From contig NC_083601.1 of assembly GCF_029168945.1 (NCBI RefSeq), positions 32,973,660-33,037,659 of the forward strand: a stretch of 64,000 nucleotides of DNA, in the 5' to 3' direction. Below the pieces are notes generated by a model. It saw only the letters and a program-made list of their open reading frames with translations, made no database searches and was not told the DNA's origin. This stretch comes from Cannabis sativa. Taxonomy: Eukaryota > Streptophyta > Magnoliopsida > Rosales > Cannabaceae. This document shows, piece by piece, positions 11,860 to 56,001 of the stretch (position 1 is the stretch's first letter; each line of letters opens with the position of its first letter). The translations under genes were made by a program, and so were the position numbers.

Positions 11860-11870
11860 TGACGCAAGTC

Positions 11871-11886
11871 AAGGGCTCTGATACCA
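11871..11886 (-). other. Primer-binding site (initiator Met-tRNA type)
   Basis: In element orientation the sequence next to the 5' LTR reads TGGTATCAGAGCCCTT. It begins directly at the LTR edge. TGGTATCAGAGC is the classic plant copia primer-binding site, complementary to the 3' end of initiator methionine tRNA. Confidence 0.93.
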
Positions 11887-12107
11887 TGAAGGAGTTGAGC
11901 AGAGAAAGAAAAGAGAAGAACAGAGTTTGTTCAATGCAGAGAGAAAAATGCAGAAAAGTTCAATTCTATTAATGATCAACTGAGAGTTTATATACACAGC
12001 AATTACAACAGAACCAAACTAAAAATATCAAGAAAAGCTAACAAACAAAGTAACAGAAATAACTAATACAATACTAACCAACTGTGAGAACAGTTAGTTA
12101 GTTAACA
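11887..12107 (-). repeat. 5' LTR of the copia element
   Basis: 221 bp, TG...CA, with a TATATAAA promoter box in element orientation near 11985-11994. It differs from the 3' LTR only at three substitutions. The flanking AATTT (12108-12112) is the target duplication. Confidence 0.97.
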
Positions 12108-34350: not shown

Positions 34351-34360
34351 TAATTATATT

Positions 34361-34410
34361 GGGACCGGATTTTGTCCCGTTACTGTACGGACACGGATTG
34401 CAATCCGTGA
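34361..34410 (+). repeat. Left terminal inverted repeat
   Basis: GGGACCGGATTTTGTCCC is followed by the palindrome ACGGATTGCAATCCGT (34393-34408). It pairs imperfectly with the right end over about 50 bp. Confidence 0.85.
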
Positions 34411-36912
34411 TGTACTGTAACCGTCGGATGGGCAGTTACTTTGATCCAAAGGTTGGGGTTCATGTAGGGGTTGATGTAGGGGTATGTAGGGTTAAATAAA
34501 TGGATACCGGCTACTTTTTTGAAATTTAAATTTATTAAAAAATGGAAAAGTGAACAGTTACATCCATCAATCAAGTCCTATCAACCTATCAACCGTCGTC
34601 CCTCTCCACTCACTATACCATTTCATTGTTATTTTTATTTTGTTGTTTATTTTGCAAAGTTCTTTCATTTCCATTTTCGTCTCTGCTAGGGCAAAAGCAA
34701 AGTTCTTTCATTTCCATTTTCTTTTTCATTTTCCATTTTGTTTTTCCATTTTCCATTTTCATTTGAGTTGGTGAAACCCATACTGTACATTTTGTTCACT
34801 GTGGTGTACATTACTCGGAGTCTGCCATTGTTGGAGTTGTTACAGGGAGTGTCAACGGTGGGTTTTACACTTTCTCCGTTCTACTTTACATACTTTTCAC
34901 AGAAAAAAAAATACATTTTTCAAGCGAACGTGGTGTTTTTGCATTTTCGTGTACTTAATATCTTCCATTTTGTCTCAGGTGTGGAGGGTGAGGTGTTGCA
35001 AGGATTGTGCATTTCTGTGTGGAGGTATTACTTTCTCTATCTCTCTCTATCTCTTTCTCTCTGGTTTTGTGTTGAATGGAGTTTGTATTTCTTTCTCTCT
35101 GTCTCCCCCCGTGCATGTGCTTGGTTGTATGTGTGGAATGTACTCTAAATTGTTTTGAGTTTTTCGTTTTAGTTTTTTATGAATATATGATTCGGTATTT
35201 CTATTTAAAGTGGAATGCACTGTAATTTAGGGGTTTTGATTTAGGTATTTTGATTTCGGTATTTGTGAAATGTGTTAGTTGACTTGTTTGGATTTTGAAT
35301 ATTTGGGGATTGGATAAATGGAGATTTTTTGAGCAATATGACAAAACTCATTTCAATTTAAAAATCTGAACCCAATAAAACAAAAATAGTTGTATTGTTA
35401 TTATTATTATGGCCTTATGTATAGGTATTAGAGAAAAAGATGTTATCTTTTTCAGTTATGTGTACGGTGAAGACTAAAGATATAAATGTATCATATGTTT
35501 TTGAGCAACACCCGAAAAATATAATTCACAAGTTCTATAATATTAGGTTGGATATTGTTTTAGTGATCTTATCATTATGTAACTGATTTTGCTTTCTTTC
35601 TTGTTTTTGGGATGAAATATGAAAATATCAAGTATTTGTAAGTATGGTACCAATTTTAGAGGCACTAAACTTATTGGTACTGAGCATAATGTCATACAAT
35701 TTAAATATCCTAATAGAAATAGGAGATATTATCAAACCAAACAAGTTGTGTATTGAATTAAAAACTTAACACAGATAAATTAGGAGTACTATTAAAAATT
35801 CGGATAAGAATAATTTAAAAAAATATATGTTTTAAATTTTGTAAAGATATTTGTACTATAGAAAATAAAATTTTCGTACATTTTTGAGACCTTATAAAAT
35901 TAAAACCCTTTCGAAATTTTTTCACTTATGCAGATAGAATTCATCTTATAAAATAGTATCAAAAGAAAGCTATTTTGTAAAGTAATATAGAAGTGGACAA
36001 GGTTTAGAAGTCCCATTTTGCAACCCCATCAAAGCTTAATGTTCATACTTGAGGAAGTGTAATAAGACATTAGTAAGTACTCTAGTTAGGAAGTAAAACA
36101 TTAGTTGCATTCTCCTTTGAAGAATTATGGAGTTTTTGACTATGTTAGGTATAGGGAAAAAATGTGGAAGGGATAGAAAATAAGTTTAAAAAATTGTGGT
36201 AGATCCTTATTATTTATTCTTCTCAGTGTATATTTTCATGTTCCTTCTGCATCTACACTGAGATGCCTACAATAAAATCTTAATATAATTGTTTCTATAT
36301 TTTATATTACATATGTTGGCATCATTGTATGTTAAAAGTGAATACTGTATAACTGACTTTGCTGGGATGGTATTGTAATAGTAAATTATCTTAGGAAAAT
36401 ATGATAACTTGGAAGCAAAGGGAGACTATTTTGCAACAAGATGAGTGATTTTTATTGTTATTATTACTTGTTTATTTTATTAATTGTTTGTGAACTGCTG
36501 TACTTTGCGGTTTTTTTGTTCCAATCAGTAACTGGAGTTGTTGGTTTGGTACAACCCACTCGATTTTGGGAAATTGACATTGCTTTTAATTGAATTTTAA
36601 TCTTATTTGAATTTTCCTTTTGGGAAATTAGAATTATAACAAAACTAACAATTTACAGAATCCATTATTTAGGCATATTGGTACATTGTACTTAACAGTT
36701 TCCATGTAATACATATTATGAAATTATGTTATATGGGAAGAGATGCTTACCTGTTATTGTACACATATAGAAAATTAAGTGTCGGGATGTCATGAATACA
36801 CTGAAATGTTAGACAATTGCATGAATTATTCAAAGTCTTTGTCTTCCAATATTTTAGTGTTTTGAATGTTTGTTAATTTAAGTTATTTTGTCTTGTGTAA
36901 TAGGTTTATAAA
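34411..36912. other. Left subterminal and 5' region of the Ulp1-like gene
   Basis: T-rich, pyrimidine-rich DNA with no convincing coding exon. The reading frames at 34550-35158 are hydrophobic, low in complexity and mutually overlapping, so I read them as non-coding. The region could hold the promoter and leader or first intron of the protease gene. Confidence 0.5.
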
Positions 36913-39900
36913 ATGGTATTTAAACGGAAGAGGGGGGCTGCAGACAAAAAGGATGCAACGAGAGATAAAGAAGAAGGATCCGAAGGAAGCTTGGCCGAAG
37001 TACTAGTGAGTTATTTGTGGCAGTTATTTTAGTGGTAATATTTTTTGGTTTTGAAAATAATATTTATAATTCCATTCCTTTATTTAATTGATGCAGCCAA
37101 GCCAATTTCTATGCTTATGCTGATGCACACAAAGAGAAACCTAAAGCAGATGTGAGTGACTTGGACTGTGTTATGGATCTTTTATTTTTTATCTTTGATT
37201 TAGCGTACTTTTGTTAATAATCGAGTCTTAATATTGCAGGTGCTTCGTAGTTTTAAGGAGCAATTCAAGCTTCTTACCGATGAAGAGATTGAGAATTGGG
37301 CTGCATACGAAGTCGAGGCTTCCTCCAAGGTTGGTGGTAGAGGGAAAGGGAAGAAGGTGAAGGAGACATTATCTCGCCGAGCCGTGGATTGACAACAACG
37401 AAGGTGTGGGGGACGTTCAAGTTTCTGGTCGTTGCTCATTCGAGCGTTTGGGGAGAATAGTCCCACTGCTGAACGAGGCTCAAAAGGAAATGGTGAGAAA
37501 TGCCGGTTTCTCAACATTTTTAAGGGAGGATGCCCCGTACATAGACGCTAAGATAGTTAGTTGGCTGATCGATCACGTGGATCCAACCACTTCTACCTGG
37601 AGATATTTGGAAGAACAATCCAACTATCCGCCAAGCTGTTTGAGGATGTCATGGGAATCCGGGATGGCGGAGAACCCGTGGCAACCGAAAGTGAGCGTGA
37701 CCTGGTTGAGTTTGACGTCCTCTTCAAGGCCAAGGACTATAGGTATTCCCTGACTTTGCTTTGGAGAATGAGCTCGGGGAAACCGGCGTTGACTACTGTT
37801 TCTCATTAAGTTTCTCCTTGTACGTATTGAACCGTGTTGCCGCCGAAGAATGGTACCGAGGTCAGCACTAGCTACATGCATTCTTTAGTTGACATAAGGT
37901 CAATTAAGAAGAAGAATTGGGCGACTGCCGGATATCGATATCTAATGAGCTCTCTACACGGTACAAGACGAAGAACACCAAAAATGTCTCCGGTTGCACG
38001 ATATTTTTACGGAGTAAGTTTTCGAATTATTGTGATGGTAGTAATTTTATTCTCTCGTGTACCGCGTGGTAATATATGTATGCACTTTTGTTTGGTGGCA
38101 GCTTGTATATTTGACGCACGTAGACTGGACTGCTACTCACGTGGACCGAACTTGTGGCTCCAATTGACTTTTGGACCACAAAACACCGCAAGTCGGTGTA
38201 CAAGTGGATTCGAGACTGTGGTGGTCACACAAGTGGAAAGGTACATTTAGTACTTCAATTTTCTAATGCGTGAGAATTTTATTTGAGAGATATGCTAACT
38301 AGTTTTTTTGGTGTACTAAGCAGGTGAAGTTGACTAACACGTATGTGTTACTGCCAAGTTTTGAATCCGCTGCAGTTGGGCAACCCACAAATGACGCAAT
38401 ATACAAAGTTTGTGTGTGAGTTGAAAGATGAGGTCTTCGGCTTGATTTGAAGGTGAGCAGGCGCAAAAGAGTCATTATCGAAGGTACTCTCCACTTCCCT
38501 TGGGAAGGGGACTATGAAAGAAGTGTTGGAGATACCTGAGACGAGCAAAGTTCAGCGCTCGCTTTCGTTCAACGGGGAGACCGAGAAGAAGGATGACGTC
38601 TGTGTCGAGGAAAAGGATGGTGAAGGGACGAAGGATGACGTGGTTGTCGAGGAAAAGGATGGTGAAGGGACGAAGGATCAATTGGAAGAGGATGTTGATG
38701 ATGTAGAGAGTGTCCCTTCACTTAATCTATCGAAGAGAAGGTCGTTGTTCCAACTAAGGTGGTTGTTTCGATGATTCGTTTGAGGTTATGAACTTTTGGG
38801 GAGAAGATCTCCCCGCTATTGTAAAAGAGGAAGTTGAGCGAGGCAAGTGAAGGATGATTTTGATGATCTTGCGTTCGAAAGATTCAAAGAATGCGGAGGG
38901 AAGGTGATTGGTCCGTTCACCGTGAAGAAGGGTTACTCAAATCAACAAGACGAGTTGTTCCGTTACATTTTCTCTAGCGCCAATGATCCGAGGTAATCTC
39001 ATGTGTCATGATTACCGTGTACGTAGTTGATATTAGTACATTCGTTTCGTTGTTGATTATTTGTTTGGTATTTCGGTGAAGTGTTAGCCCATTTTGGGAA
39101 GGTTGAGGTCGAGCGGATGTATTTCAAATGCATGAAACCGAGACCGATATATCACACGATGTACGTAGAAGTTGGCTTTTGGGTGCTTTGAAATTTTTAG
39201 TTCATTACTTTAGTTAATGCCATTTACAAATTGTATGAATGACAACATAACGGATATTGTTTGTGTAAATGTCGGCTCATTGATTGCTTTGCTCAAATCA
39301 TGAATTTTCGAGAGAAGAAGCGCAACGGCATTGGAAGTAAGAGAACTTGGTTTATGCCCACCGAATTTCGGTATGAAATTTGATATTTAAAAGTGGACAT
39401 GAATCTTTTGTATTTGTCTTGTAAACTCGTTAAATCTAAGTTTTTATTTAAAATGTAATCTATTATGTGTGCTTATTGTGCAGAGCAAGTTACTTGGAAG
39501 ATCGATGATCGTGGAGAGGATGGCGAAGCGAAGAGTGGTCCACTCTTTATTACGATGCAGATTTGAGTTTATGTCACACTGTAATTTGCATTTTCTTGAA
39601 ACTTTTGTGTTGAATCAAATGTGTGTAGTTCAATTTTCCGATGACGTTGTTTGTTTTACTTTGTCGAGATGGTGGTACCCCTACCGGATACCGAGAGTGC
39701 TCCGCACCGGTTTGCGGCGAATGTGAGCATGGTTAATACAACGTGTGGAAATTAGGGACTCGTTGTCTTCGCAATGCATAAGAGGTCACGTCGGAGCACT
39801 GCGTAGAGATGGTATGCACGTGTGTACACGGTGTGCCGTTTTATTAGTGTAATTGCACTAATCTCAACTCGTGATTGTTTTAATTTTTTTGCGGCTCCGG

Positions 39901-40491
39901 ACTTTGGACCAATTGTTTGCCCCCGTGAAGCCGCAGGACTGAATTTCGGCCGAGTTTGTAATTATTTCTTCAAGCAAGGACTACCCACAACAACAAAATG
40001 GCCACGATTGTGGAATGTTTGTAATGAAGTACATGGAATCACTGTTCGAGGAAAATGAAATATTGGAAGAGGTAATGTAATGTTGATTTCTTTAGTTTAA
40101 GTTTTCATCCCGTTAACTAACTCGTTTATATTGTGAAAATTGAGTTGTCAATCTATTTTTTGATGGATTTGTTTCTATGGATTTGGTTGTCATGTGTATT
40201 ACTGAATTGGTTTCCTAATGTACACTGCAGTTTGATCCTATTGAAGCGAGACTGGATTGTGTTGGGAAAATTGTCACCCACGAGAGTAACAAGGCTAAAC
40301 ATGCTGTGATGGAGGGAGTTAAGAAGCAATTTGGATTGAGCAAAACCAAAGTTCTTCCATCAACATCTACAACTATAGCATTACGTAGTCCATCAAGGTC
40401 TCCTCGAGACCCCCGATTCAAGACAGTCGAAGGCCGTGTCCGAAAACATGTGGACTGGCAAGAGCAAGTCCCCGAAAACACGTCATTCTAA
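36913..40491 (+). pseudogene. Ulp1-like (C48) cysteine protease gene, decayed
   Basis: Several open pieces in different frames form one gene. The first exon candidate (36913-37005, starting MVFKRKRGAA) ends at GTGAGT. A piece at 37240-37389 reads VLRSFKEQFKLL. A conserved N-terminal region of plant transposon-borne Ulp1 proteins follows (37406-37620, CSFERLGRIVPLLNEAQKEM; then, after a frameshift, GRTIQLSAKLFEDVMGIRDG). Next come a region near 37820-38010 (LYVLNRV, LVDIRSIKKKNWA), an acidic linker with 14-residue repeats, and IGPFTVKKGYSNQQDELF near 38910. The catalytic-cysteine motif is PQQQNGHDCGMFVMKYME, with Cys at 40009-40011, ending at a GTAATG donor. The last exon is 40231-40491. The catalytic His and Asp are not recognisable. 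Ulp1 enzymes cut SUMO from proteins. Such genes recur in plant Mutator-like elements with unknown transposition role. Frameshifts make this copy non-functional unless they are assembly errors. Confidence 0.8.
38592..38675 (+). repeat. 42-bp in-frame tandem repeat in the acidic linker
   Basis: Two units (38592-38633, 38634-38675) encode DDVCVEEKDGEGTK and DDVVVEEKDGEGTK. They lie in the linker of the Ulp1-like gene. Protein-level periodicity is kept, so the repeat probably arose while the frame was in use. Confidence 0.85.
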
Positions 40492-40499
40492 AAGGCTGG

Positions 40500-41820
40500 C
40501 CATAAGTAACAAGTAGTATATTACAATGGTTAGAAAAGTTACTTTATTTATATATTTACTATGTTCAGTACAATGGTTACAAAAGTTAGGTTTTAGGTCG
40601 TAAATTATATTTACTCAGTCATGTTATATACTTGCATCATACTACTGTTAGGTGATTTGGAATTGCACTAATGTTGGTGATTTTATAATTTACTATAGGG
40701 TGAGACTTGTGGTAGTTTTTAGAATTTGGTGGAACTGATTATTATTATTGTATGGTCATTATTACTATTATTGTGAATATTATTTAGGTTGTTATACTTT
40801 GCCATTACTATTAGGTTTTGGATTTTTTTTTACCATAACAATATGTCAAGTACATTATTCTGAAAATGAAACTAACCAATTTTTACATTCCTTTTCGCAC
40901 TATCTGTTTTAGTCCAATGATGTCCATAGCCAAAATAATAATAATACTTATACTTATGTACTTTCCCATTACTATTGTGAATATTATTACTGTTGTTATA
41001 TTTTGCCGTACTATTAGGTTTTGGATAGTGAATTACATTATTTTCAAAATGAAATTGTTTACTCCAATTATGTCCAAAATAATAAAAATACCTACAATCA
41101 ACAACGAAGGCATTAATTACGGCCTTGGACATAAATTTGGATCAAAAAGAGTAAGTACGCATGCTTATGAGCAATAATAATAACTCTGTCACACAATTTC
41201 CTTTGTAACAATTTTACCACTTCTAAATAATGTAATTAAAGGCTATAAAAAAGAACTGTTTTCCAAAAATGCAGTGTATTGAACATCAACCTTTACAACA
41301 ATTATATGGATACCTCCAACATATTAAAAATTAAAAACAATGGTACCAATCTATTCAACATTAAACACATAGTTAAAGTACTGTACAGTGATGAGACATA
41401 ATAACTCTGAATTTCACCATTTCTAAATAATGCAATTAAAAGCTACCAAAAAAAATAAAGGTTAGTGTTTTTAAAAAATGCAATGTATTGAACATCAACG
41501 TTTGAAAATGGTAGCAATCTATTAAACATTAAACTTTGAAAAAAAAAGTTGAAGTATTTTTAAAATGCAAATTAGTGAAACACAACAATGTTGACTAAGT
41601 TATTATGACACTTTTTGGATTATATTGTGAAAATTACCGATATTTATCTTTAAATCCTAGTATTTCACACTAGATTAATTACTGTACTACGCACATATTG
41701 ACATTCACAATCAATGACGAAATAGTAATTAAGAAATTTTTAATAGAACCAACTTAAATGCCTACCTTTCCTTTGAATTACGTCCTTAAAAAACATAAAA
41801 TAAACATCATACCACATACA
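40500..41820. other. 3' flank of the Ulp1-like gene
   Basis: AT-rich, with diverged internal repeats: blocks such as ATTACTATTATTGTGAATATTATT recur near 40760-40790 and 40967-40990, and TGCAATTAAA/GCTA(C/T)(C/A)AAAAAA blocks near 41230 and 41430. No gene recognised. Confidence 0.45.
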
Positions 41821-41826
41821 ATATCT

Positions 41827-42290
41827 CTAACGAAATACAAGTTGGCAAATGATGAAGAGGCAAATAAATATAATGAAATATAATTTTTTAATAATGTTTT
41901 CATGGTGCATCTTCTCTTTCTCCAAACTCCTTACTTGGTTTCGCAAACCGAGAGTAGTGTCTCGGGTTTTTAGGATGAGCTTGATCGATCCAACAAAAGT
42001 AATCACATCCTCGACTTTCGTTGTTCTCACCGAATTTAAAATAAGTACATCACCATATTTACAAAGCCTAGTTTAAAATATTATTAAGGCGTTCGAAGTC
42101 TTACATAGTGCGGACATCCAAAGAAGCGACGACCCGGATTTGCTCTACTGCTAGAAGTCCAAACATAAGCTAGATCACCACAGTAACAATGGGGGTGTCC
42201 CCCAAGTGAATTTTTCCATGAAGGGAAATCCCTCTCGAACCCGTAGGGGTCCTCTCCGGTAACTGCCCACCATGTTTTTTTTTTAACAAA
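41827..42290 (-). pseudogene. GRF-type zinc finger, coiled-coil, membrane-anchored protein remnant
   Basis: On the minus strand a piece near 42225-42108 reads HPHCYCGDLAYVWTSSSRA followed by NPGRRFFGCPHY. This is the signature of a GRF zinc finger (C-x-C ... NPGRRFxxC). A candidate splice donor, GTAAGA, follows. A second piece (about 42050-41827) reads CKYGDVLILN, then a coiled-coil-like NQVRSLEKEKMHHENIIKKL and a hydrophobic tail (YFIIFICLFIICQLVF) to a stop at 41827. Plant genomes hold many short proteins with this order: GRF finger, coiled coil, C-terminal membrane segment. Exon phases do not join cleanly, so it is probably decayed. The GRF finger binds single-stranded nucleic acid in other proteins. 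Its job here is unknown. Confidence 0.65.
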
Positions 42291-43091
42291 CCAAATTAGG
42301 GTGTTAGTGAGGCTTGAAAAGGAGTGTTTCCGTTGACCTTATGGTGGAAATAGGTTGTGAAAATAAATTTAGGGGGGAAACCGAATTTCTTTGAAAACGT
42401 TAGAAAGTATATTAAAATTGGGGAGCATATTTCGTGCTTCCTCTCAAATATTTGCTTCAAAGTCTTTGGTGCACTATACTTATATACAAAAAAGTAGTGT
42501 CAATCAATCACAAGCAAATTCAATCAAATTAAAATAATATTTTATGTTAACTCTATGAACAGTTAAAAGTACAACACATAAATATTTCTCCCCACATGAA
42601 TAAACCACATATACAGCCGGTTTAGTTTGGTTTAATGGAATTGTATGAACTTTCTTATATTTTAATTTTATGTAGGATGTATTGGAATTCTAATTTCCAA
42701 TAATCAGTTGACATGTGTAGGATGTATTACCTTCTTTAATAAAATAAAAAATACTTATTTAAATATACAAACCTTTGAAGTCAATATGAATGAAAATAAT
42801 GTGTGTCATTTAAATATACATTTTGAATTTTGAGTGGGTTAATATCAATGAAACTTAATTTTTGTCTTATGTTAATAGAATCTGCTACAGTACATATGAT
42901 GTGACATATAACTATGTAAAACTCAGCCAAGTACGTTTTTACAATAAAATAATAATTTCAACACTTAAAGTAAACAACAAATCCTTCAAAACCCTAAAAA
43001 ACAATTTTAAATAAATGAGGAAGACCTTTTTTGTATTTTAAAATAATAAACATTTTAATAATATTTTCCCATCAATCCATATACGGTCAAA

Positions 43092-43555
43092 TCAGTAGGT
43101 TGTACATGAGGAAGCAATTTGACATAGGACTGTAAAAAACGCTGACATTCGCCTCCCGCATATCTTTTCTTCAAGAGTCTGGCGCACCGTTGTGTCAAAT
43201 ATTATAACACTCATTCCTCGGTCGCCTTGTCCACTCGGGAGGTTAAGGTTCGGTAGGATGACATATTTGGGTGGCCGTTTTGGAAGTAGTTCCCGCCACC
43301 CTAGTCCACCCATCCCAAACCTTCGTCAACATTTCCTGAATACACATGTACCACATACATAAAATTTTTAAGAAACAATTTGTAATAATATAATATTGAA
43401 ATAAATAGACATAAAGAGTTGAGTTATTACCAAAATTTGTTATGAGATGATTTATTGAATTGCTGAAATTCCCTTGATGCACCTACAACACACGGTTGCA
43501 GTGCATACCAATCCTTCTGTTTACACATCTTCACTTTGGTGCAACAACAATACAT
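43092..43555 (-). pseudogene. Left copy of an unrecognised duplicated gene
   Basis: A TATA box lies about 105 bases upstream of an ATG at 43555 (MYCCC). The translation continues KDWYALQPCVVGASREFQQF. After a candidate intron (donor GTAATA, acceptor near TATTCAG), it reads LTKVWDGWTRVAGTT and CHPTEP. The phase across the candidate intron does not join, so the exon model is uncertain. I do not recognise the protein family. The same gene is present in inverted orientation at 47363-47831. In the right copy the equivalent of the first exon contains a stop (TAG) where this copy has AAC. Confidence 0.5.
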
Positions 43556-43660
43556 AATTTATTTTTTTAATATATTATACACACGTCTACATATAGGGAG
43601 TGAGTTCTCTAGGATAGGGTTTAATACGAAATTGTGAAGGAGTAAGGAGAGGTAGAGGGG

Positions 43661-43668
43661 TATATATA
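43661..43668 (-). promoter_or_regulatory. TATA box, left duplicated gene
   Basis: TATATATA is conserved with the mirror copy at 47233-47240, including flanking CCACAAGTAC and CCCCTCTACCTCTCC in gene orientation. It lies about 105 bases upstream of the ATG. Transcription would run outward from the satellite array. Confidence 0.55.
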
Positions 43669-44640
43669 GTACTTGTGGATGTGATTGTTGAGTGTAGTCT
43701 TCACAAAAATTTAAAAATAATAATTAATAATATAACCCTAGGTACGGCTACAAATAACCTAAAGCTATTTATTTGACTTTTTCAATCCCTTGAAAAACGT
43801 AGTATCAACAAATAGACAAACCCCTACTAACTTTTCCTTGGAAGACGTAATTGGAACCAATATGCATGCTCGGTCACAACATTGAATTGGTTCACTGTGC
43901 TAAACAAAAATTATGTATTTAAATAAGGTAAATGTTGCTCCCATTGTTATCACATGTAGCAACAAATATCCTAATATTATGTCCAAATAAACATGTGTGG
44001 CCAAATGAATAAGAAATTAAATTAGGATGTTTACTAATAATGAAAACTCAATATTTATTTAAATACGATTTTAATATTTCATTAAAATATTATTCGTTGG
44101 AGTAAATATTGCAATAATTTTTGTAAGATTACATTAACGTATCACTCGTTGGAATCAAGATTACAATAATTTTTTGAATACTATATAAATATAGATATTT
44201 AATAACAAAATTGTTTAATGTTATGAATACAATAGTAGTTTAAGACAAGAAGTGACTCTAGTAATAAAATCAAGAGAATAGTGAATCTGGTACGCGTCAT
44301 GATGAACTGAGTACACACTCAGCCCAAACAACCTAAATTCATAGTGCGACTTCTCCCATACTGCATCGGTGTCACTCTGTACAACCCTAGGTCAAACTTC
44401 ATTCGGTGAGTTCGTTAGAAGAGGAGTGACTCCGTACCCAACAAAGAAACTTCACTACATACTGTGTCACCGCGCATGTAAACACCGCGAGTGACAACGT
44501 CAGTACTACGAATGGTTGACTGTCGCGTCGTACAACCCTAGCTCGAACTAGATTCATTGAGTTTTTTAGGAGGATAGTGACTCCGGTACACCAAAGCTAA
44601 CTTGACTACATACTGTGTGTCACCTTAACCAAAAAACACC

Positions 44641-46330
44641 GAATCCAGTTCGACCTGGGGTACCGGAATCACTACTCTCCCAACGAACTAACCGAATCCA
44701 GTTCGACCTCGGGTTGTACTGAGTGACACTCAACCATTCCTACTACTGACATTGTGACTTGCGGTGTTTACGGGCCCGGTGACACACAATATGTACTCAA
44801 GTTCGCTTTGGGGTACCGGAATCACTACTCTCCCAACGAACTAACCGAATCCAGTTCGACCTCGGGTTGTACTGAGTGACACTCAACCATTCCTACTACT
44901 GACATTGTGACTTGCGGTGTTTACGGGCCCGGTGACACACAATATCCTACATATAGTTCGCTCTGGGGTACCGGAATCACTACTCTCCCAACGAACTAAC
45001 CGAATCCAGTTCGACCTCGGGTTGTACTGAGTGACACTCAACCATTCCTACTACTGACATTGTGACTTGCGGTGTTTACGGGCCCGGTGACACACAATAT
45101 GTACTCAAGTTCGCTTTGGGGTACCGGAATCACTACTCTCCCAACGAACTAACCGAATCCAGTTCGACCTGGGGTTGTACTGAGTGACACTCAACCATTC
45201 CTACTACTGACATTGTGACTTGCGGTGTTTACGGGCCCGTGACACACAATATGTACTCAAGTTCGCTTTGGGGTACCGAATCACTACTCTCCCAACGAAC
45301 TAACCGAATCCGGTTCGACCTCGGGTTGTACCGAGTGACACTCAACCATTCCTACTACCGACATTGTGACTTGCGGTGTTTACGGCCCGGTGACACACAA
45401 TATGTACTCAAGTTCGCTTTGGGGTACCGAATCACTACTCTCCCAACGAACTAACCGAATCCGTTCGACCTCGGGTTGTACCGAGTGACACTCAACCATT
45501 CCTACTACCGACATTGTGACTTGCGGTGTTTACGGGCCGGTGACACACAATATGTACTCAAGTTCGCTTTGGGGTACCGGAATCACTACTCTCCCAACGA
45601 ACTAACCGAATCCAGTTCGACCTCGGGTTGTACTGAGTGACACTCAACCATTCCTACTACTGACATTGTGACTTGCGGTGTTTACGGGCCCGGTGACACA
45701 CAATATGTACTCAAGTTCGCTTTGGGGTACCGGAATCACTACTCTCCCAACGAACTAACCGAATCCAGTTCGACCTCGGGTTGTACTGAGTGACACTCAA
45801 CCATTCCTACTACCGACATTGTGACTTGCGGTGTTTACGGCCCGGTGACACACAATATGTACTCAAGTTCGCTTTGGGGTACCGGAATCACTACTCTCCC
45901 AACGAACTAACCGAATCCAGTTCGACCTCGGGTTGTACTGAGTGACACTCAATCATTCCTACTACTGACATTGTGACTTGCGGTGTTTACGGGCCCGGTG
46001 ACACACAATATGTACTCAAGTTCGCTTTGGGGTACCGGAATCACTACTCTCCCAACGAACTAACCGAATCCGTTCGACCTCGGGTTGTACTGAGTGACAC
46101 TCAACCATTCCTACTACTGACATTGTGACTTGCGGTGTTTACGGGCCCGGTGACACACAATATGTACTCAAGTTCGCTTTGGGGTACCGGAATCACTACT
46201 CTCCCAACGAACTCACCGAATCCAGTTCGACCTCGGGTTGTACTGAGTGACACTCAACCATTCGTACGACCCACAATGTGACTTGCGGTGTGTACGGGCC
46301 CGGTGTGGCACAGTATGTACTCATTTAATC
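44641..46330 (+). repeat. ~153-bp satellite array, 11 units, inside the Mutator-like element
   Basis: Units begin with GGGGTACCGGAATCACTACT at 44657, 44810, 44965, 45118, 45270, 45421, 45571, 45724, 45876, 46029 and 46181. The spacings are 150-155 bp. Each unit contains GGTACC, TGAGTGACACTCA and CGGGCCCG, all near-palindromic. Units are nearly identical apart from occasional single-base losses next to C/G runs. Two diverged, inverted units precede the array (44265-44640) and one diverged unit follows it (to about 46430). It is not a CRISPR array: units are contiguous, without unique spacers. Confidence 0.95.
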
Positions 46331-47232
46331 ATGAAGCGTACCAGAGTCATTATTCTCCAGACTTTATTACTACACTCACTTGTTCTCTCAAACTACTATT
46401 GTATTCGTAACAGTATGTACTCATTTTAATATGTGAGAAACATAAAATGAAGAATAATATTAAAAGTATTTTTTTGTTAGTTTTTTATATTTTTAAGCTA
46501 TATTATGTTATTATATTATTTAAGATACCCTGAAGTAACTTTTTTTTTTTTAAATGTAACTCTTATAATGTTTTAAATGTGTCTGATAAAATAGTTTTAT
46601 AAAAATAAGTTTATTTTTAATTTAATTTTCTAATTTCAAATATAAAAAATTTAAAAGTAGTAACTTGTTTTCATACATTAAATTTTATTTAAATTTAAAT
46701 ATTCTTATATAAAATAAAAAAAGAAAAAGACTAAAATATTTTTTAAAAAATTTAAAAAAGAGAATGTTTGACAAGTTTATTATTATTATTACAAAAAATA
46801 TATTTTTACTATATGTGTCATGAGTCATATACAAATAATAAATAAAAAAGTAGGGATGCCTAAAAAAGTAATTGGCAAAAAAAAAAAAGAAAACGTACAA
46901 CCGCTGAATTAATATATTTTAAAATTATTAAAGTGAGAATATGTGAGTAGCTCATTATTTCATTTTTTTAATAATAATATTAATAAAGGAGAAATTTTTT
47001 CTAACCACAATCAACCAAACCACAACAAAATCGATAATTTCGTTGGTTGGAATTACGTCTTCCAAGGAAAAGTTAATAGGGGGTTGGGTTTGTTCAAATT
47101 ACGTTTTTCAAGGGATTGACAAAATCAAATTTGTCTTGGGGTTATACCACCTTTAGCCGTACCTAGGGTTATATTAATTATTATTTTGTAATATTTGACA
47201 AGACTACACTCAACAATCACATCCACAAGTAC

Positions 47233-47240
47233 TATATATA
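47233..47240 (+). promoter_or_regulatory. TATA box, right duplicated gene
   Basis: TATATATA is conserved with the mirror copy at 43661-43668 and lies about 125 bases upstream of the ATG at 47363. Confidence 0.55.
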
Positions 47241-47362
47241 CCCCTCTACCTCTCCTTACTCCTTCACCTCTCAATTTAGTATTGTTTTCTTTCCTAGAAA
47301 ACTCACTCCCTATCTGTAGACGTATGTATAGGGATAATATATATAAAAAAAAATAGTAAATT

Positions 47363-47831
47363 ATGTATTGTTGTTGCACCGAAGTGAAGATGTGTAAACA
47401 AAAGGATTGGTATGCACTACAACCGTTTGTTGTAGGTGCATCAAGGGAATTTCAGCAATTCAATCAATCATCTCATTAGAAATTTCGGTAATAACTCCAC
47501 TATTTACGTCTATTTTTTTAAAAATTATATTATTACGAATTGTTTCTTAAAAATTTTATGTATGTGGTATATGTATATTCAGGAAACGTTGACGAAGGTT
47601 TCGGATGGGTGGAGTAGGGTGGCACGAACAACCTCCAATCATGGCACCCAAATATGCCATCCAACCGAACCTAAACCTCCAATAAGGCCACCGAGGGATG
47701 AGTGTTATCTATCATATTTGACACTACGGTGCGCCATACTCTGGAACAAAATGATACGCGGGAGGCAAATGTCGCCGTTTTTACATTTTTTGGTAAAATT
47801 ATTATTTTATTATAAAACCGTACTTGGGTGA
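47363..47831 (+). pseudogene. Right copy of the unrecognised duplicated gene
   Basis: It starts MYCCCTEVKMCKQKDWYALQ and continues PFVVGASREFQQFNQSSH to a TAG stop. After a candidate GTAATA...TTCAG intron, the second piece reads ETLTKVSDGWSRVARTTSN, then CHPTEPKPPIRPPRDECYLS and CAILWNKMIRGRQMSPFLHF. Compared with the left copy, the exon-1 stop is new. I do not recognise the family. Confidence 0.5.
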
Positions 47832-47905
47832 GTTTTAAATATATATGTCACATCATATGTACGGTAGGAGTTTTTATTAACAAAAGACAAAAATTAATCC
47901 ATTTT

Positions 47906-50400
47906 GTTGGGTTAATCCAAATGTTAATCCATTAGTTGGTTGTTCACTTTTATTATTTGAAAATTGTAATGTTTAATACTTTATTGTAATCAAGAAGTGA
48001 GAAATTGTAATGTGGTTACTACAAATTAATTAGCATATATAAAAGATTTCTTTATCCTAATAACGTATTTCTACGTATGTCTTTCCAACCCTAAAATCAA
48101 TTTTCAACAGTCACAGAAATAAATTATATGAAAATATGTTTGGAACGTATTTCAATGTACGTCGGAAAATTTGGATCTCCCATATCTCAATAAGTTCAAG
48201 TTTGAAAATAACGTACATTAATATACGTGCAGAGTACCTTATATCGGAAATACAGTACGCTGCAATTATGTTTACTCAATATTTGAATTTAATGAGATAA
48301 TAAGATTTTTTTTCAAATGTAAACTATAATTTCGAACATATTTATTCGTACATTACTTATTTTAATACATTTTGAACCATTTCCTATTTAGGACCACGTT
48401 TTAAAGTTGTTGGGAATTATTTAAAAATTGTCCAAATATTGTAATCTTCTTAACCAAGTATGGACTATTTCCTCTTTAATTTGTAGATACTAACTAAAAA
48501 AATCAATAGTTGTCTTATCAATATTTAATTTTCTGTGTACGTCCCACGTTGTACTCACCGACGTTAAATGGAGTATTTCCTACACTTTAAATAACGTACG
48601 TCGGCCGATTTCACGGTGTAACATCAAATCAAACTCGACTACATTCGACATGCAGATCTCATGGGATTCCCTGATTTGAGTTAATTAATATACTATTTCA
48701 AAACACGAAACCTACCAGTAATTACTTAAGGAGATTTAATATTTGTTGGGCTCTAATATACTAATATGACATTTTTCTTATTAAAATTTGGACAAATCAA
48801 TTAGGTCAGATTTAATAAATTATGATAGTAGTACCAACAACGATTATGATGTCAAATTTTAATAAATTATTTACGACTGAAATGAGTAGATGTCACATCA
48901 CCTTTTTAAATTTCACCATTTAAACCATGTACTTATTATTACCATAACATTTAAATATTTAGGTGACAAAGTATTCATTAAATAATTACTCCTTCTGTGG
49001 GATCCGACCAAAATATTAAAAAAAAAGTCATACATGTCACGTGAATTCTTCGAGTATTGTGCCAAATATTGTAAAAAAAAACTTGTTTTTATTATTTATT
49101 ATAATTGTAGGGAATGTTCTATTCTATGTACCTTATATTTTGATCTCTATAAATAGACAAACATCCTACATATAGTTACTTTATTTGTAATAAAATAATT
49201 AGGATTAATACAATTAAGAGCACCATGATTTGATATCAATATATTATAACATTTATTGTTGATACATTTAATAGAGTTTCATTTTTTTTTTCTTTTTCTG
49301 AAAATTAATTTTATAATTCTAAATTTTAATGCATATGGTGCATGGGACCTCACATTTGATCTTTATGTTCAATTAATATTGATTTTTTTTTTTATATATA
49401 ATATTTTATTTAGAAACATTTTGTGTTCTTATTTAAATTTAGGCTAGTAAATTTAAATTAATACAACATTTAACAAAAAAGAAGGCAAATACTCATTTTG
49501 ACAAATTATTTAGATGGTGTTTTGGCACTATAATTAAAAAATAAATTTTATTCATAACAACTGAAATTTTTTTTTAATAATGCCTACAATTATAAGTGTT
49601 TGACAATATTTTCAGAAGATTTTTTTTTTTAAAAAAAAAATAAATAAAATATAAAATTTTGAGAACACCAAAAAGTTATTTGTCGGAGTTTAATTTCATC
49701 AATTTTTTTTTTCCAAATTACTTTAAAATGCATTTCTTTTTTATGAATATATTTATTAATTTTTTTATTGAAGTTTATTTTCTAAGAAAAAAAGAAAGAA
49801 TAAATAAATAATTTCTGTTTTTACAAAATTACATCAAACAAATATTTTTTAATTTTTGAAAACTTCAAAGTATGTTTTATATTATCATTATTTTAAACAA
49901 TTTTAAAAAAAATAAAAACAAAACCAGAAAAATTCAGAGTGACTCCTCTTATTATTTAAGATTTGAAAACAATTTTATGTTTTTATAAACTCAAAAGGTG
50001 GGTCTACATACAAATTCTTGATTTAGTCAAATATTTTCAAAAACAAAATCTGGGTATTATTTTGAATTTTAGATTGAAAAATAAAAACACTATTTTTCAT
50101 GTTTCAAACCGTGTACTTATTACTTAAAGATGGTGATGTGACATTTTTATACGGCTGTAATAAATCAATTCACATCATTCATTATGTCTTCCATCTGTAC
50201 TAATACTTAAAAGCATTTTATTTTTACTTTAATTCTGCAAATTATTATTTAAATCTCTCAAACCGTACGTAATTTTGTTTTTAATATAAACATGTCACAT
50301 CACTTAGTACTTTCCCGATATTGCTTAGATTTTGTTTGTGGGATTTGATTCACCTTCTCCTTCTATTAAAATTGGTTAACTAATAAATGTGTAAATATTA
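47906..50400. other. Non-coding interior of the Mutator-like element
   Basis: AT-rich. The part at 48050-48620 has many ACGTAC/CGTACG steps, as in other non-coding parts of this element. I see no gene. Long T/A runs lie at 49280-49300 and 49620-49640. Confidence 0.5.
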
Positions 50401-50502
50401 CCATTGTCAAAATTTATTAACTATGAAATGGTTAAATTCGGAAAAAGAAAACCAATATTATTACATCAACCCAATCACGTGTACATCAACCCACCAACCC
50501 AC

Positions 50503-50509
50503 TATATAA
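50503..50509 (+). promoter_or_regulatory. TATA box of the 160-residue ORF
   Basis: TATATAA in CCCACTATATAAG lies 65 bases upstream of the ATG at 50574. A short A/C/T-rich leader follows. Spacing fits a plant RNA polymerase II promoter. Confidence 0.6.
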
Positions 50510-50573
50510 GTAAAGGTTATGTCTATTCACTAAGCATTTTTATCAAACCCCGTTTTACTGTTACCTACATCAA

Positions 50574-51056
50574 ATGGACCCTTACCAAAACTTCAACCCT
50601 TTTGAAACAAGTCCTCAAAAATCCCCACCGCATCCTTTTTCTTCCACAAGACACGTAGGTACACCGTCACGGAGTCCAAGACTCCGTTCAGCGTCCATCT
50701 CAGGATGTCCTAACTGTGCAAGGCTCGAGTCTGTTCTCCACGAACACGAAAAAATTATAAAGAAGGCTTATTTACGAGCCACGGAGGCCAAGCAAGAGTC
50801 ATACAAACTCGCGGAACATCTGTACCATTCAGCCCACGCCATGCAAGAAGCCAACAGTTCAAGAGAAAAATTAGAGGGTATCATGGATGACATTCTCGAC
50901 TACACCGAGGTGTCCATTCCCCACTACCTACTTCATGTGAAACAAGAATCACCAAGCACTACTCCAAGAGAAAGCCCTTCACGACCAAAGTCCCCGTTCA
51001 GAGACAATAGCCCTCCGTCTCAAAGGAAGTTCCCTCAAGTTATAGAACTTGATTGA
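50574..51056 (+). CDS. Unrecognised 160-residue coiled-coil protein with CxxC
   Basis: The frame is intact and has plant-gene-like codon use, unlike the surrounding A/T-rich DNA. The N-terminal 40 residues are Pro/Ser-rich (SRSPRLRSASISG). A CPNC pair follows at about residues 46-49. Residues about 50-105 are highly charged and predicted to form a helix or coiled coil (HEHEKIIKKAYLRATEAKQE). The C-terminal part is again Pro/Ser-rich with a PRESPSRPKSPF stretch. No signal peptide or membrane segment is seen. The ATG is chosen because a TATA box lies 65 bases upstream. It is the only clearly unbroken gene in the element, 1.8 kb upstream of the transposase. It could be a second mobility-related protein or captured host sequence. 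I do not recognise a family. Confidence 0.65.
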   Translation: MDPYQNFNPFETSPQKSPPHPFSSTRHVGTPSRSPRLRSASISGCPNCARLESVLHEHEKIIKKAYLRATEAKQESYKLAEHLYHSAHAMQEANSSREKLEGIMDDILDYTEVSIPHYLLHVKQESPSTTPRESPSRPKSPFRDNSPPSQRKFPQVIELD

Positions 51057-51415
51057 ACATCCGTTCGGTTTCGATCGTGGTATTTTTCATATATATATAC
51101 TGTACTTTTGTTACAACTCATCTCATATGGCTGTTGAATCAACTTTTTGTTAGGCCATTTAATGAGATTGAAGCACTTCTATTATATATCTACTTGTTTG
51201 TAACTTTACTATATTATTTTAAGTTTTTTTGCTTTCTGTTTGCAGTTGTGATTTCACAATGATTCACTTCACTTTTACTTCCACAATTAATTAATGAGGA
51301 AAGTGACATTAATACTCCAAAATAAACCAAAGTACATATTTCATAACAAATACTGATCGTACAACATTATAGCTTAAAATATAAAATAACATAACTTGGA
51401 CACTAACACAGGGCA

Positions 51416-51622
51416 TCATTTACTGTTTTTGGGAGAAGTATCCACTCCTCCTTTGTCTCCAACTTCTATATCATCTCCATTTCGGTCCTCACCTTTCTCG
51501 CCGAATCTTTCACATTGTCTGTTCGGGTGATTTAATTGCACCGTAACATTCACCCTCATCAAACAAAGTGAGCAAACGGAATTAAGGATAGCCTCTTCAT
51601 CATTATCATCATCGAATCCCAC
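51416..51622 (-). CDS. Small unrecognised ORF downstream of the RNase H1-like ORF
   Basis: 68 residues, acidic (MGFDDDNDEEAILNSV), with CSLC and a lone Cys further on. It is in the same frame as the ORF 51638-51853 but separated from it by two adjacent stops (TAA TGA), so the two could be parts of one decayed or spliced gene. I do not recognise it. Confidence 0.3.
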   Translation of the reverse strand: MGFDDDNDEEAILNSVCSLCLMRVNVTVQLNHPNRQCERFGEKGEDRNGDDIEVGDKGGVDTSPKNSK

Positions 51623-51637
51623 ATGCGGGGAAACTCA

Positions 51638-51853
51638 TTAACACAAAGCAAAGTTCTCTAACTTTACGCCGGTGAAGCATTCTCCCGTCTCTCCATGTAG
51701 ACATAAAGCAGAAAAAGCTTCTATGAAAGATTCATAACGAATTATTTTTATGGACGCATCAGAAGTAGTGTTTTTGCTTACAGCATCTTCGTACGTACTA
51801 TAGATACCTTCATTTGGTCCATTGAAAATAACCCAGTGTGGACCTGAACTCAT
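51638..51853 (-). CDS. Small protein resembling the RNase H1 N-terminal hybrid-binding domain
   Basis: 71 residues. HWVIFNGPNEGIYSTYEDAV matches the family pattern of a short beta strand, G-x-x-x-GIY and a conserved aromatic. A spacer and YESFIEAFSAL follow, the place of the 'F..eAe.aL' end. This domain (also called viroplasmin-like) binds RNA/DNA hybrids or double-stranded RNA in eukaryotic RNase H1 and occurs alone in many plant proteins. The middle is shorter than usual and the tryptophan expected after GIY is replaced by Tyr. The ATG at 51853 gives a natural N terminus. The role in the transposon is unknown, and the assignment is by pattern only. Confidence 0.45.
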   Translation of the reverse strand: MSSGPHWVIFNGPNEGIYSTYEDAVSKNTTSDASIKIIRYESFIEAFSALCLHGETGECFTGVKLENFALC

Positions 51854-52149
51854 ACTTGATATATTGTAATGCTAATAACTAAGTTACAAATTAATTTCTC
51901 TATAAACTTGATGCTGGATTGGAAAACGTCTCAAGTGTCTTATATAAGTCGTGGAGAATAACCCTATAGTACGTTTTTTAGTTAGCTGTACTCCATTGGG
52001 ATGTACTCCATTGGGCAAATGTGATGTGTCAAAAGAGGGGTGCTTAAATCTCTGAATTACACAATTAAATACACGTGTAGGCGTACGTAGTATGGTCAAA
52101 TGTCAACATTATTCATCAATGCCGTTTTTCCAAAAAACCTAATGTCCTA

Positions 52150-52790
52150 CGCATCGTTCTAACGTACGACGATGGTTTAACTTATAAGAAGATGTAGGTG
52201 AAGGGCCCATTAATATCACCAACATAAATAAATCCCCAACATATATAAATCAGTAAAACTACCCATTCTACTAAAATAAGACATCACTTTAATACACGTG
52301 TACACGCATGGGGTTTTCATAATAGTACTGCGTTATCTTTGTAAAGTACAGGAATGGTTGAATTAATTAAAAGATGTTGGTATAGGCCCATTAATATAAG
52401 CCCAATGGATTTAAATGTGAACAACTAACCATTTATTAAAATTTTCTTCTTTTCTTAACATATTTTTTTCCAAAAACAATAAAAGTACAATGTTTTATTT
52501 CGGACGTACGAATATGGTTCAAGTCATTGAAAAACTTAGGTGAAGGCCCATTAACATAACCCCAATCTATTTAAATCCCACCACCAAACCTTTCAACTCA
52601 ATAACATCAACCCTTCAAATTTTTCGTCAAATAACCTTATTTCACAATTACATGTGGAATGAAATTAAAACAATTTGTACTATTATACTGTTATGACGTA
52701 CGAGAGGAGTTGAGTTCAGATTGTAATATTGAAGAGGCCCATTAATATCACCAACAGCTTTAAATGTGATCACCAACTCCACACAACCCT
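52150..52790 (+). promoter_or_regulatory. Four promoter-like repeats upstream of the transposase gene
   Basis: GGCCCATTAA occurs near 52205, 52385, 52545 and 52737, at intervals of about 160-190 bp. Each copy is followed by a (T)AATAT or ACATA step and ACC/CCC blocks. In three of the four copies a CGTACGA precedes it by 35-50 bases. GGCCCA is the core of plant site II / TCP-bound promoter elements. The last copy lies about 160 bases upstream of the ATG at 52895, so the array is well placed to drive the transposase. Confidence 0.6.
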
Positions 52791-52894
52791 ATTATCTCAG
52801 CCTTCTATACTCACAAAATCTAATTTCAATCCCCTCACCACCCTCTACACCTTACTCCTCATCTACAATTCTTACAAATCAATAACAAGCCAAC

Positions 52895-55188
52895 ATGAAT
52901 GACGAACACACTTATGAATGGGAAACCATCACAGCAGAGCTAAACATCATAAAACCAGTGAATGAGATTGAGATACAGGACGTGCTAGGCAAGAGTCTCG
53001 ACAAACTGGAAAAATGGGAAGCATTCTACGAAATGTATGCGAAACGGATGGGTTTCGGCACAAGGAAAGACGATGTACGGCGTTCTCATGGGGTCATTGT
53101 AATGCGGAGGTGGGTTTGTTGTTCAGAGGGTTCGAAAAAAATCGCATCACCGGACACACCAAGAAAAAAAAGACCTCATGATGTCACTAGAACCGGATGT
53201 CAGGCAGCATTGCGTATTTTACTCACACAACCGTCTAACACTTGGAAATGCAAAGAGTTCAAGACAATGCACAATCACGAGTTGGCTTCATCAAGTGAGG
53301 TACAATTTTTGAGATCATATAGAGTTGTCTCCAATGGGTTGCTTGCCCAAGTCGTCGATGAACTCCGTAGGAATTAAAACTCGCCAACATAATGTCTCAT
53401 GTTGCTTTGCAAAGTGGAGGTTACGAGAAAATGCCATGTCAACTTCGAGATGTGTACAACAGTGGTTGCCGGTGCGAAGCGAGAAGAGAAGATAGAGACG
53501 GACTCGGAAGGGGCTGCGGGATTTCTTGATTGTCTCGCAGAGAAGGATCCTAATTTCTTCGTTGTCTATCGTGGTTGACGACGAGAATCGCTTGGCTAAC
53601 TTATTCGGGCGGATGGAAACTCACGCGTGGACTATGTAGCTTTTGGGGATGTACTAGGATTTGACACAACCTACATGACGAATGAGTACAATAAGCCCCT
53701 CACTGTTCTCATTGGCGTCAACCACCATTTCAACACATGCATCTTCGGATTTGCTCTCCTCCTCCACGAGAAGCTTCCATCATATTCTTGGCTACTTCAA
53801 AAATTTCTAGAATGCCATGGAGATAAGAAGCCAAGTGTTGTAGTTACTTGACCAAGATGCGGCCATGAAAAAGCTATCGTTGAACACATGCCCGATGTTA
53901 CGCACCGTCTCTCGCGCTTGGCATCTCAATACAAATGCTTCGAAAAAGGTTAAAGATCCGATCTTCTTAAAAACATTTAAGGATCTCATGTACAACTACT
54001 ACGAGGAGGAAGAATTTGAAGCAAGATGGTTAGACGTCATCCAAACCCAACAACTACCGTATAATGAATGGTGTCAAACAACATTCGAGTCAAGACAACA
54101 ATGGGCGTAAACGTATTTAAGGGGTTCATTCGTTGCAGGAATGAGAACCACCCAACGTTGCGAATCCATCAACTCCGCTCTAAAAAAATTTTTAGAGAAG
54201 AATTATTGCTTGCGTGAATTTGTAACAACCATAGATATGACAAGCCTCAAAGCTCGTACACAACGAGACCGCAAATGACTTCAAAAGTAGATGCACTCGA
54301 CCTCACCCACCTAATCCTACATGCTTGACCACTTACTACAACCAATGTGCGGAATTCTACACAAGAACTATGTACCACAAGGTTGCCGAGCCTTGATTTA
54401 GAGAATAACTATTTTGTCCTAACTCAAGAGCAAGAAGGAGAGTGGCGTATATTCACCATTGGAAAGTTCCAAAGCATCCGGACGTCCAATACCGAGTTCA
54501 TTACTGTGAAGGCCGACGAGCACTACACTGTAGTTGCTTGCTCTATGAAAGTCAAGGGTACCCTTGTAGACATTTATGGGCTACAATGAAAAGATTAAAC
54601 ATGAGAAGAATACCTAATTCTCTTCTCATGAAGCGATGGAGCAAATCCGCAAAGATAAATCTCCACCTATATTTTAACCCGCCAGCACAACCACAACAGC
54701 ACATTTACGAGATGGCTAGGTTTGGATCTCTCAGTTCACTGACTTATAACTTCACTTTCTATGCAGCGAAATCAGAGGACTCGTACAACCGTGCAAAGGA
54801 AGAGCTTGAACGGCTAACTCTAATGTTCAAGGAAGAATTTGACTTGAATTCCAATCCGGAAGGAGAGACGCCACAACCTGGAAGATATCGTAGCAACCCC
54901 AACATTATTAAAGACCCCGAAGTTGTGAGAACAAAGGGTACGGGAAATACAAGGGAAGGACCAAACGGGGAGCAGATCCCAAGAAACTCAAGACATTGTC
55001 GCATTTGTCGCTCATCAGACCATGATTATCGACGGTGCCCAAATCGTCAACATAACACTGGATCTCAGGGGCAACAACCTCCAAACAATCAACCACCATC
55101 TGACTCATTCAATGACCACTCCAACGCGTATTTCCCGGAACCGCCTTCCTCCACACAAGAGTCTTACTATAGTCATTCTTATAACTAG
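52895..55188 (+). pseudogene. FAR1-type Mutator transposase, several frameshifts
   Basis: The 5' piece (52895-53377) holds a FAR1 DNA-binding region: FYEMYAKRMGFGTRKDD, then a zinc-binding block ending in CKEFKTMHNHELAS. The MULE transposase core follows (53627-53851): VAFGDVLGFDTTYM with the first catalytic Asp, then YNKPLTVLIGVNHH and FGFALLLHEK. After a +1 shift near 53850 comes DQDAAMKK with the second Asp. Further pieces read RAWHLNTNASKK, EEEFEARWLDVI and, after another shift, AGMRTTQRCESINSALKKFL. The 3' piece (54442-55188) has a SWIM zinc finger (CSCLLYESQGYPCRHLWA) and a C-terminal CCHC-like CRICRSSDHDYRRCP. Domain order matches FAR1/Jittery-type transposases, nuclear proteins that cut and join the element ends. 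At least four frame changes break the gene. Confidence 0.9.
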
Positions 55189-55499
55189 CTACTTTTAGCC
55201 ATTGTTGTTTTAACGTTTATGACTCTACTTATTGCAACCCAAGATCTACATTTATATACTTCTTGTTATGTTTGCTGTGTTTAAGGTAATTCTCTCATCT
55301 TCACCAAACCTCAAAATTATTATTGACGAACAACTAAATTATGCCTAGGAAAAAAAACTGAATCTTATAAGGTGAAAAAATATATTTTTCTGGTAATTTT
55401 TAATATACGAAATATTTACAATTACAAAATTACACCAACTAAAAACTCAATGTATAACAACAAATAATTTCATCACTAAAAAAAAAAAATTCTAAACAA

Positions 55500-55941
55500 T
55501 ATACTACGAAACGTAAATGAACGTACTCGGTACGTGAAATTTTGTACTCGGTACGTGATATTATGTACACTAATTTTACTAAACATCACGCAGAAATAAG
55601 TAATGTACACGGTACTCTATATAATGTACTTAATTACCATCCCACAAATACATATGATCTTATGAATGAAGGAAAATACCAAAATAGCCTTAATCCGACA
55701 ACATGGACCCACTGCCTACAGTGTTTTCGTACCATCAACTGCCAGGAACAGTGAAGAGTGATGTACCTTTTTGTACTCTAACTAACACAAACAGTACCAT
55801 TTTGTACTTTTTCCGTACCTAATTATTTTATAATTAAAAAAATAAAATCCCAACCGGTAACCACACCTACAACAACCGGTTACCACTTACATTTTAAAAA
55901 TTAAAAAACATTTAAAAGTACGGTGGGGCCCCCCTGCCGTA
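55500..55941. other. GTAC-rich right subterminal region
   Basis: GTAC tetramers are strongly enriched here (GTACTCGGTACGTG occurs twice near 55525-55560, then GTACAC, GGTACTC, GTACTT, CGTACC and others), about 15 or more in 440 bases. They approach the right end. The left end has similar steps (CTGTACGG, ATGTACTG near 34383 and 34410). This could be a protein-binding subterminal array. Confidence 0.5.
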
Positions 55942-55991
55942 CAACGGATTCCAATCCGTGTTTTGCATATATGGGCACAAAATCGGCTGCC
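55942..55991 (-). repeat. Right terminal inverted repeat
   Basis: Inverted, it reads GGCAGCCGATTTTGTGCCC at the end, then the palindrome ACGGATTGGAATCCGT (55944-55959 on the plus strand reads ACGGATTCCAATCCGT). Confidence 0.85.
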
Positions 55992-56001
55992 TAATTATAT
56001 T

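Follow-up and report, generated by a model that had tools for sequence, protein, structure and literature searches.

Does the 21.6-kb stretch at 34361-55991 of the Cannabis sativa DNA analysed here (a single stretch of 64,000 nucleotides, referred to below as the window) correspond to one mobile element, or to several lying side by side? A preliminary description, made from the letters alone, had proposed a single Mutator-like element (MULE) carrying both a FAR1-type transposase and a Ulp1/C48 protease gene. Having examined the ends, the genes and the intervening DNA, we consider that the stretch is very probably one broken copy of a Jittery-type MULE, which contains a probable nested insertion together with protease, GRF and coiled-coil genes. 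Features are listed in Table 1.

Table 1. Position of the features described in the text, in window coordinates (TSD, target site duplication)
Feature	Position	Strand	Basis
10-bp TSD TAATTATATT, left copy	34351-34360	+	sequence comparison
Left end, degenerate inverted repeat (comparison over 55 bp)	34361-34415	+	end alignment
Palindrome ACGGATTGCAATCCGT, 32 bp inside left end	34393-34408	.	motif scan
Ulp1/C48 protease-like gene, probably multi-exon, broken	36913-40513	+	Pfam and alignment to P0121
GRF zinc finger, split over two frames by an intron or a frameshift	41900-42197	-	Pfam on joined pieces
Candidate 9-bp TSD TGGGTTAAT	42835-42843 and 47908-47916		sequence comparison
Probable nested element of 5,064 bp, non-coding, with long inverted repeats	42844-47907	.	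repeats and candidate TSD
153-bp tandem array, 10.9 copies, inside nested element	44656-46323	.	
Coiled-coil ORF, intact, 160 aa	50574-51056	+	ORF, protein match, model
FAR1-type MULE transposase, broken	52895-55188	+	Pfam and frame-aware alignment
Transposase domains: FAR1; MULE; SWIM; CCHC knuckle	53024-53287; 53651-53911; 54526-54594; at 54997	+	Pfam, motif
Right end, degenerate inverted repeat (comparison over 55 bp)	55937-55991	-	end alignment
Palindrome ACGGATTCCAATCCGT, 32 bp inside right end	55944-55959	.	motif scan
10-bp TSD TAATTATATT, right copy	55992-56001	+	sequence comparison

Ends of the element

The stretch is bounded on both sides by a perfect 10-bp direct repeat, TAATTATATT, exactly as had been described, and this length fits the 8-11 bp reported for MULE target site duplications (PMC6446971). 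The 10-mer is found 4 times in the whole window, both strands included. Just inside the duplication the DNA reads GGGACCGGATTTTGTCCC on the left and, once inverted, GGCAGCCGATTTTGTGCCC on the right. Inverted alignment of the two 250-bp ends gave a score of 36.0, compared to a maximum of 32.5 for random stretches aligned with the left end (n = 2,937 window stretches). Identical 10-mers lying 1-40 kb from each other form 20,589 pairs; when these were ranked by their 55-bp ends, the TAATTATATT pair came in position 2, the sole pair above it being the TTTTTTATTT repeat. The tips by themselves prove nothing, because over the first 20 bp 340 of these 20,589 pairs, the TAATTATATT pair included, score equally well. 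Likeness between the ends is confined to the outermost 50-60 bp, and is not strong. What stands of the terminal inverted repeats announced in the preliminary description is a pair of related, inverted ends; long terminal inverted repeats (TIR) were not found, the similarity covering about 55 bp and being degenerate. Long TIRs are typical of MULEs but not obligatory, and non-TIR MULEs are recognised in the literature (PMC2528002, PMC6446971).

The strongest single fact in favour of paired ends is a pair of palindromes at equal spacing. The 16-bp palindrome ACGGATTSSAATCCGT has two sites in the window, both exact copies, and no further site appears even when up to 3 mismatches are allowed (at least two matches, with up to 3 mismatches, were obtained in 5 out of 100 shuffles). 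The distance between each palindrome and its own end is 32 bp, identical on the two sides; the matching terminal palindromes noted earlier are confirmed. Being palindromic, ACGGATTSSAATCCGT gives no proof that the ends are inverted.

Genes between the ends

The transposase gene was recognised by three consecutive Pfam matches between 53.0 and 54.6 kb, FAR1 (E 2.8e-19), MULE (PF10551, E 1.2e-16) and SWIM (E 8.7e-5), all of which, together with the Peptidase_C48 match described below, exceed the Pfam cut-offs. A CCHC knuckle is located C-terminal to SWIM. The MULE-type DDE transposase domain assigns the gene to the Mutator superfamily, and the N-terminal FAR1 followed by a C-terminal SWIM or CCHC motif is the Jittery/FAR1-type arrangement; judged by these domains, we read the transposase as Jittery-type (FAR1-class). 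Its Cannabis relative P0001 contains the MULE domain PF10551 at E 3.4e-27, with SWIM slightly below cut-off (18.0 versus 19.6 bits). The transposase core also gave a sub-threshold "RNaseH-like" match (PF21056). A protein search with the read-through of the gene returned 164 matches; among the 120 listed, the best 14 came from Cannabis sativa and Humulus came next, the best seven being 74-87% identical to the read-through.

Upstream, on the same strand, the window contains a Peptidase_C48 match at 39964-40059, placed at the Cys motif. Seven proteins, all from Cannabis, were listed as matches of the protease read-through (36.9-40.5 kb), the best one being P0121, of 873 aa; no Citrus or Humulus relative was among these listed matches, scoring being limited to the 7,990 candidates with most words in common. 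P0121 gives a C48 match at E 8.5e-13, as well as a plant mobile domain match below cut-off. When it is aligned with SENP1 (E 9.5e-5), its His, Asp and Cys fall in register; we take these three residues to be the catalytic triad. The C48 domain with its His, Asp and Cys is thus found in the relative P0121, the window gene itself being broken. Structure prediction for P0121 gave a mean pLDDT of 27.9. A transposase and a protease gene, on the same strand and with domains above cut-off, are both present inside the unit, as had been claimed. Two kinds of repeat were seen in this region: a 42-bp coding tandem repeat within the protease gene (38585-38668), whose 14-residue unit differs in number between P0121 and P0122, and imperfect direct repeats at 40751-41503, spaced by some 200 bp, between the protease and GRF genes.

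Three smaller genes had been proposed as well, coding for a GRF finger, a coiled coil and an RNase H1-like protein. The GRF finger was recovered on the minus strand by joining two pieces (42197-41900), at E 4.5e-9. The coiled-coil gene was confirmed as an intact ORF, 159 of its 160 residues being identical to P0128; the search produced 4 matches from 17 candidates, all from Cannabis sativa, and the predicted structure is a single helix spanning residues 46-114, with low-confidence ends. The Cannabis relatives P0001 (transposase), P0121 (protease) and P0128 (coiled coil) stand for clusters of 147, 92 and 37 sequences, which are database members and not copies within one genome. By inference, the mobile unit includes the GRF gene and the coiled-coil gene; they could also be bystanders.

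The RNase H1-like gene, on the other hand, was not retrieved inside the element by Pfam frame scans, the + strand of 55403-55900 being left out. This absence weighs little, because of that omitted segment and because the same scans overlooked the split GRF finger, and could miss a split RNase H1-like gene. Patterns built on motifs of RNase H and of related domains gave no match either, which carries no weight, as the RNase H pattern also overlooked the real RNase H of a LINE. It is to this LINE, on the left of the element, that the RVT_3 match at 32517-33236 belongs. The LINE itself covers 30633-33236, its end being separated from the element by about 1.1 kb; RVT_1, zf-RVT and RVT_3 share a single frame, which has at least one in-frame stop.

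A probable nested block, the case for one element, and frame breaks

Between the two groups of genes lies a block (42844-47907) which is probably a nested non-coding element flanked by a candidate 9-bp duplication, TGGGTTAAT. Its inverted arms are 84% identical over 753 columns, and 86% over the outer 120. A hand estimate puts at about 0.2 the probability that the 9-bp match is due to chance. No coding domain was detected in the block, the Pfam matches there being all under the curated cut-offs. Once the block and one copy of its duplication are subtracted, the host element measures 21,631 - 5,064 - 9 = 16,558 bp. The 21.6 kb first proposed is then correct as a span, but it would be an element of about 16.6 kb inflated by the probable insertion of 5.06 kb. 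That the element is far larger than typical MULEs is a weak claim in view of the grapevine families of 17.7, 16.2 and 14.4 kb, the largest sizes recorded there being 14.4 kb for Jittery-like and 17.7 kb for MuDR-like MULEs (PMC2528002).

The block might instead be native to the element and regulatory, for instance as the tandem-repeat target of an anti-silencing protein. Its structure, a 153-bp tandem array flanked by inverted arms, lends some colour to this idea, as non-coding tandem repeats are the reported targets of VANC (PMC10398659); its own long inverted repeats and candidate 9-bp duplication make it unlikely, as does the repeat listing of the window, in which no pair links the ends of the block to the outer ends of the element. 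The position of the block, a 5-kb element with long TIRs sitting between both gene groups, also suggests another organisation, in which two older elements would be adjacent, Ulp1 and GRF belonging to the first, the coiled coil and the transposase to the second, and the outer ends would match by chance. ULP genes of grapevine, placed downstream of the transposase (PMC2528002), go in the same direction, and so does the exclusively Cannabis origin of the 7 protease matches listed out of the 7,990 candidates. We nevertheless hold two adjacent elements to be very improbable: the likeness of the outer ends, the 10-bp duplication and the equal spacing of the palindromes (32 bp) would all have to coincide, and in Citrus gene models a related Ulp1 region immediately precedes the transposase. 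In 3 of the 120 listed transposase matches (P0025, P0041 and P0086, all from Citrus), Peptidase_C48 is found upstream within the same gene model. Compared to P0121, the protease part of P0086 shows 36% identity across 81 N-terminal residues and 28% across 129 residues of the protease domain, and that of P0041 shows 21% across 507. These models are predictions; the three probably correspond to one locus in two Citrus genomes, the fusion of protease and transposase is probably an artefact of prediction, and neither a GRF nor a coiled-coil gene is included. The succession of a related Ulp1 and a transposase on one strand, outside hemp, makes chance neighbours less likely. Common chromosomes of the protease and transposase relatives were also considered as evidence of linkage, and discarded as too weak. 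A single Mutator-like element with both genes is well supported by its ends and 10-bp duplication, and helped by the Citrus gene models.

As far as the sequence can be read, the transposase and protease genes of this copy are broken. Compared to P0001, the transposase has 11 frameshifts, 2 in-frame stops, and 59 mismatches in the 610 codons away from breaks; compared to P0002, a close relative whose model is, however, without some 80 residues around the SWIM finger, it has 11 frameshifts, 1 in-frame stop, and 8 mismatches in 517 such codons (these counts are approximate, as they come from our own frame-aware alignment and reference gene models may skip breaks themselves). The protease gene differs from P0121 by 23 frameshifts, 3 of them doubtful as they fall at intron edges, and by 2 in-frame stops in aligned codons. 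Local assembly errors could have produced these breaks, in which case the copy would really be intact and possibly autonomous, and still a single element. The comparison with P0002 points that way: the 11 frameshifts face 10 mismatches in all, an excess of indels that is unusual for plain decay, since breaks are about as many as mismatches. We regard this explanation as possible but rather doubtful, given that mismatches to P0001 are more numerous, like ordinary divergence, that the coiled-coil ORF has no break, and that frames elsewhere in the window are kept. A copia ORF is open over 1,212 codons, a single in-frame stop and a single frame change being confined to its edges, and the three LINE domains share one frame over about 2.5 kb, in spite of the stop mentioned above; a uniform assembly error is for this reason unsupported. 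Homopolymer errors are not supported as the cause, since the longest run averages 2.53 at the 34 breaks, versus 2.77 at random places.

Relation to known elements and possible history

Among the nearest described elements are Jitvine-1 and Jitvine-2 of grapevine, which have a Jittery-like transposase, a large size (11.9 and 14.4 kb) and no TIR listed in the report describing them (PMC2528002). The same report mentions ULP coding sequences in Jittery-like MULEs of melon and of some grapevine families. In grapevine, however, ULP is downstream of the transposase, whereas in the hemp element it is upstream on the same strand, and the Jitvine entries list no TSD, compared to 10 bp in hemp. CitMule of Citrus (PMC4334395) has FAR1, SWIM and MULE domains as well, resembles the hemp element in its AT-rich TSDs and in terminal repeats that are short and degenerate, and is termed non-TIR; it differs by its size (6.9 kb), its 9-bp TSDs, and the lack of any Ulp1 mention in the portion of the report available. 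Jittery group 36, found in flowering plants with TIRs of 39-292 bp or none (PMC6446971), has the same N-terminal FAR1 and C-terminal SWIM or CCHC. It is entered there with 1 ORF, to which the hemp element adds protease, GRF and coiled-coil genes.

Arabidopsis KAONASHI/KIU and the VANDAL MULEs are likewise Ulp1-bearing, non-TIR MULEs (PMC13317346, PMC10398659, PMC2528002). Their transposase is of the mudrA type, with ULP in reverse orientation, unlike the FAR1-type transposase and same-strand protease of hemp; the hemp element has neither a mudrA/VANDAL-type transposase nor a reverse ULP. Accessory proteins that counter silencing were described in these systems, VANC (PMC10398659) and KIU (PMC13317346), and the KIU genes, which belong to non-TIR MULEs and bear Ulp1, were linked to methylation loss (PMC13317346).

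The suggestion that the locus represents an undescribed lineage stands in part only: the accessory set is unusual, but the pairing of a Jittery-like transposase with ULP was already reported in melon and grapevine (PMC2528002). Our verdict is a new family of a known kind, distinguished by its upstream Ulp1, its GRF gene and its coiled-coil gene. No title or abstract naming such a set was met in a literature search of partial coverage, and the Cannabis pangenome paper, in its accessible part, names Mutator and not FAR1 or MULE (PMC12286863).

From these features, a history of the element may be proposed. The transposase would bind the element ends, the palindrome 32 bp inside each being a candidate site, then excise the element and insert it elsewhere by a staggered cut, generating the 10-bp target duplication; such a cut-and-paste mode is suggested by membership of the Mutator superfamily. 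The mobile unit would comprise the transposase gene, preceded in the same orientation by the Ulp1-type protease gene, GRF on the opposite strand, and the small coiled-coil gene. The protease most likely would remove SUMO, either from silencing factors of the host or from the transposase itself, and so favour expression or integration. Later on, the non-coding element with long TIRs would have inserted between the protease and transposase genes, bringing the size from about 16.6 to 21.6 kb. A broader scenario, which we offer as tentative and somewhat unlikely in its entirety, is that of a Jittery-lineage MULE family predating the split between Cannabis and Citrus, with Ulp1 as a standing partner upstream, GRF and coiled coil joining in the hemp lineage, and a multi-gene set of helpers that would evade silencing by way of SUMO, arrived at independently of Arabidopsis KAONASHI.

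The function of the Ulp1 domain in such elements has been stated to be unknown (PMC13317346). Different MULE lineages repeatedly carry Ulp1 proteases, and the hemp element bears on the reason why. If the order of Ulp1 and transposase is truly common to hemp and Citrus, a lasting helper, not a chance capture, is suggested. Annotated, unbroken Cannabis proteins make the role of the protease testable.

Other features of the window were recorded. The copia element, at 7141-12107 on the minus strand, is young, with 221-bp terminal repeats 98.6% identical and the 1,212-codon ORF. At 57121-57639, repetitive open frames occur on both strands, with imperfect repeats and one inverted match at 18.5 kb. 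Finally, two inverted repeats of about 260 bp, sharing 85% identity, were found at 59000-60538, some 3 kb right of the element.
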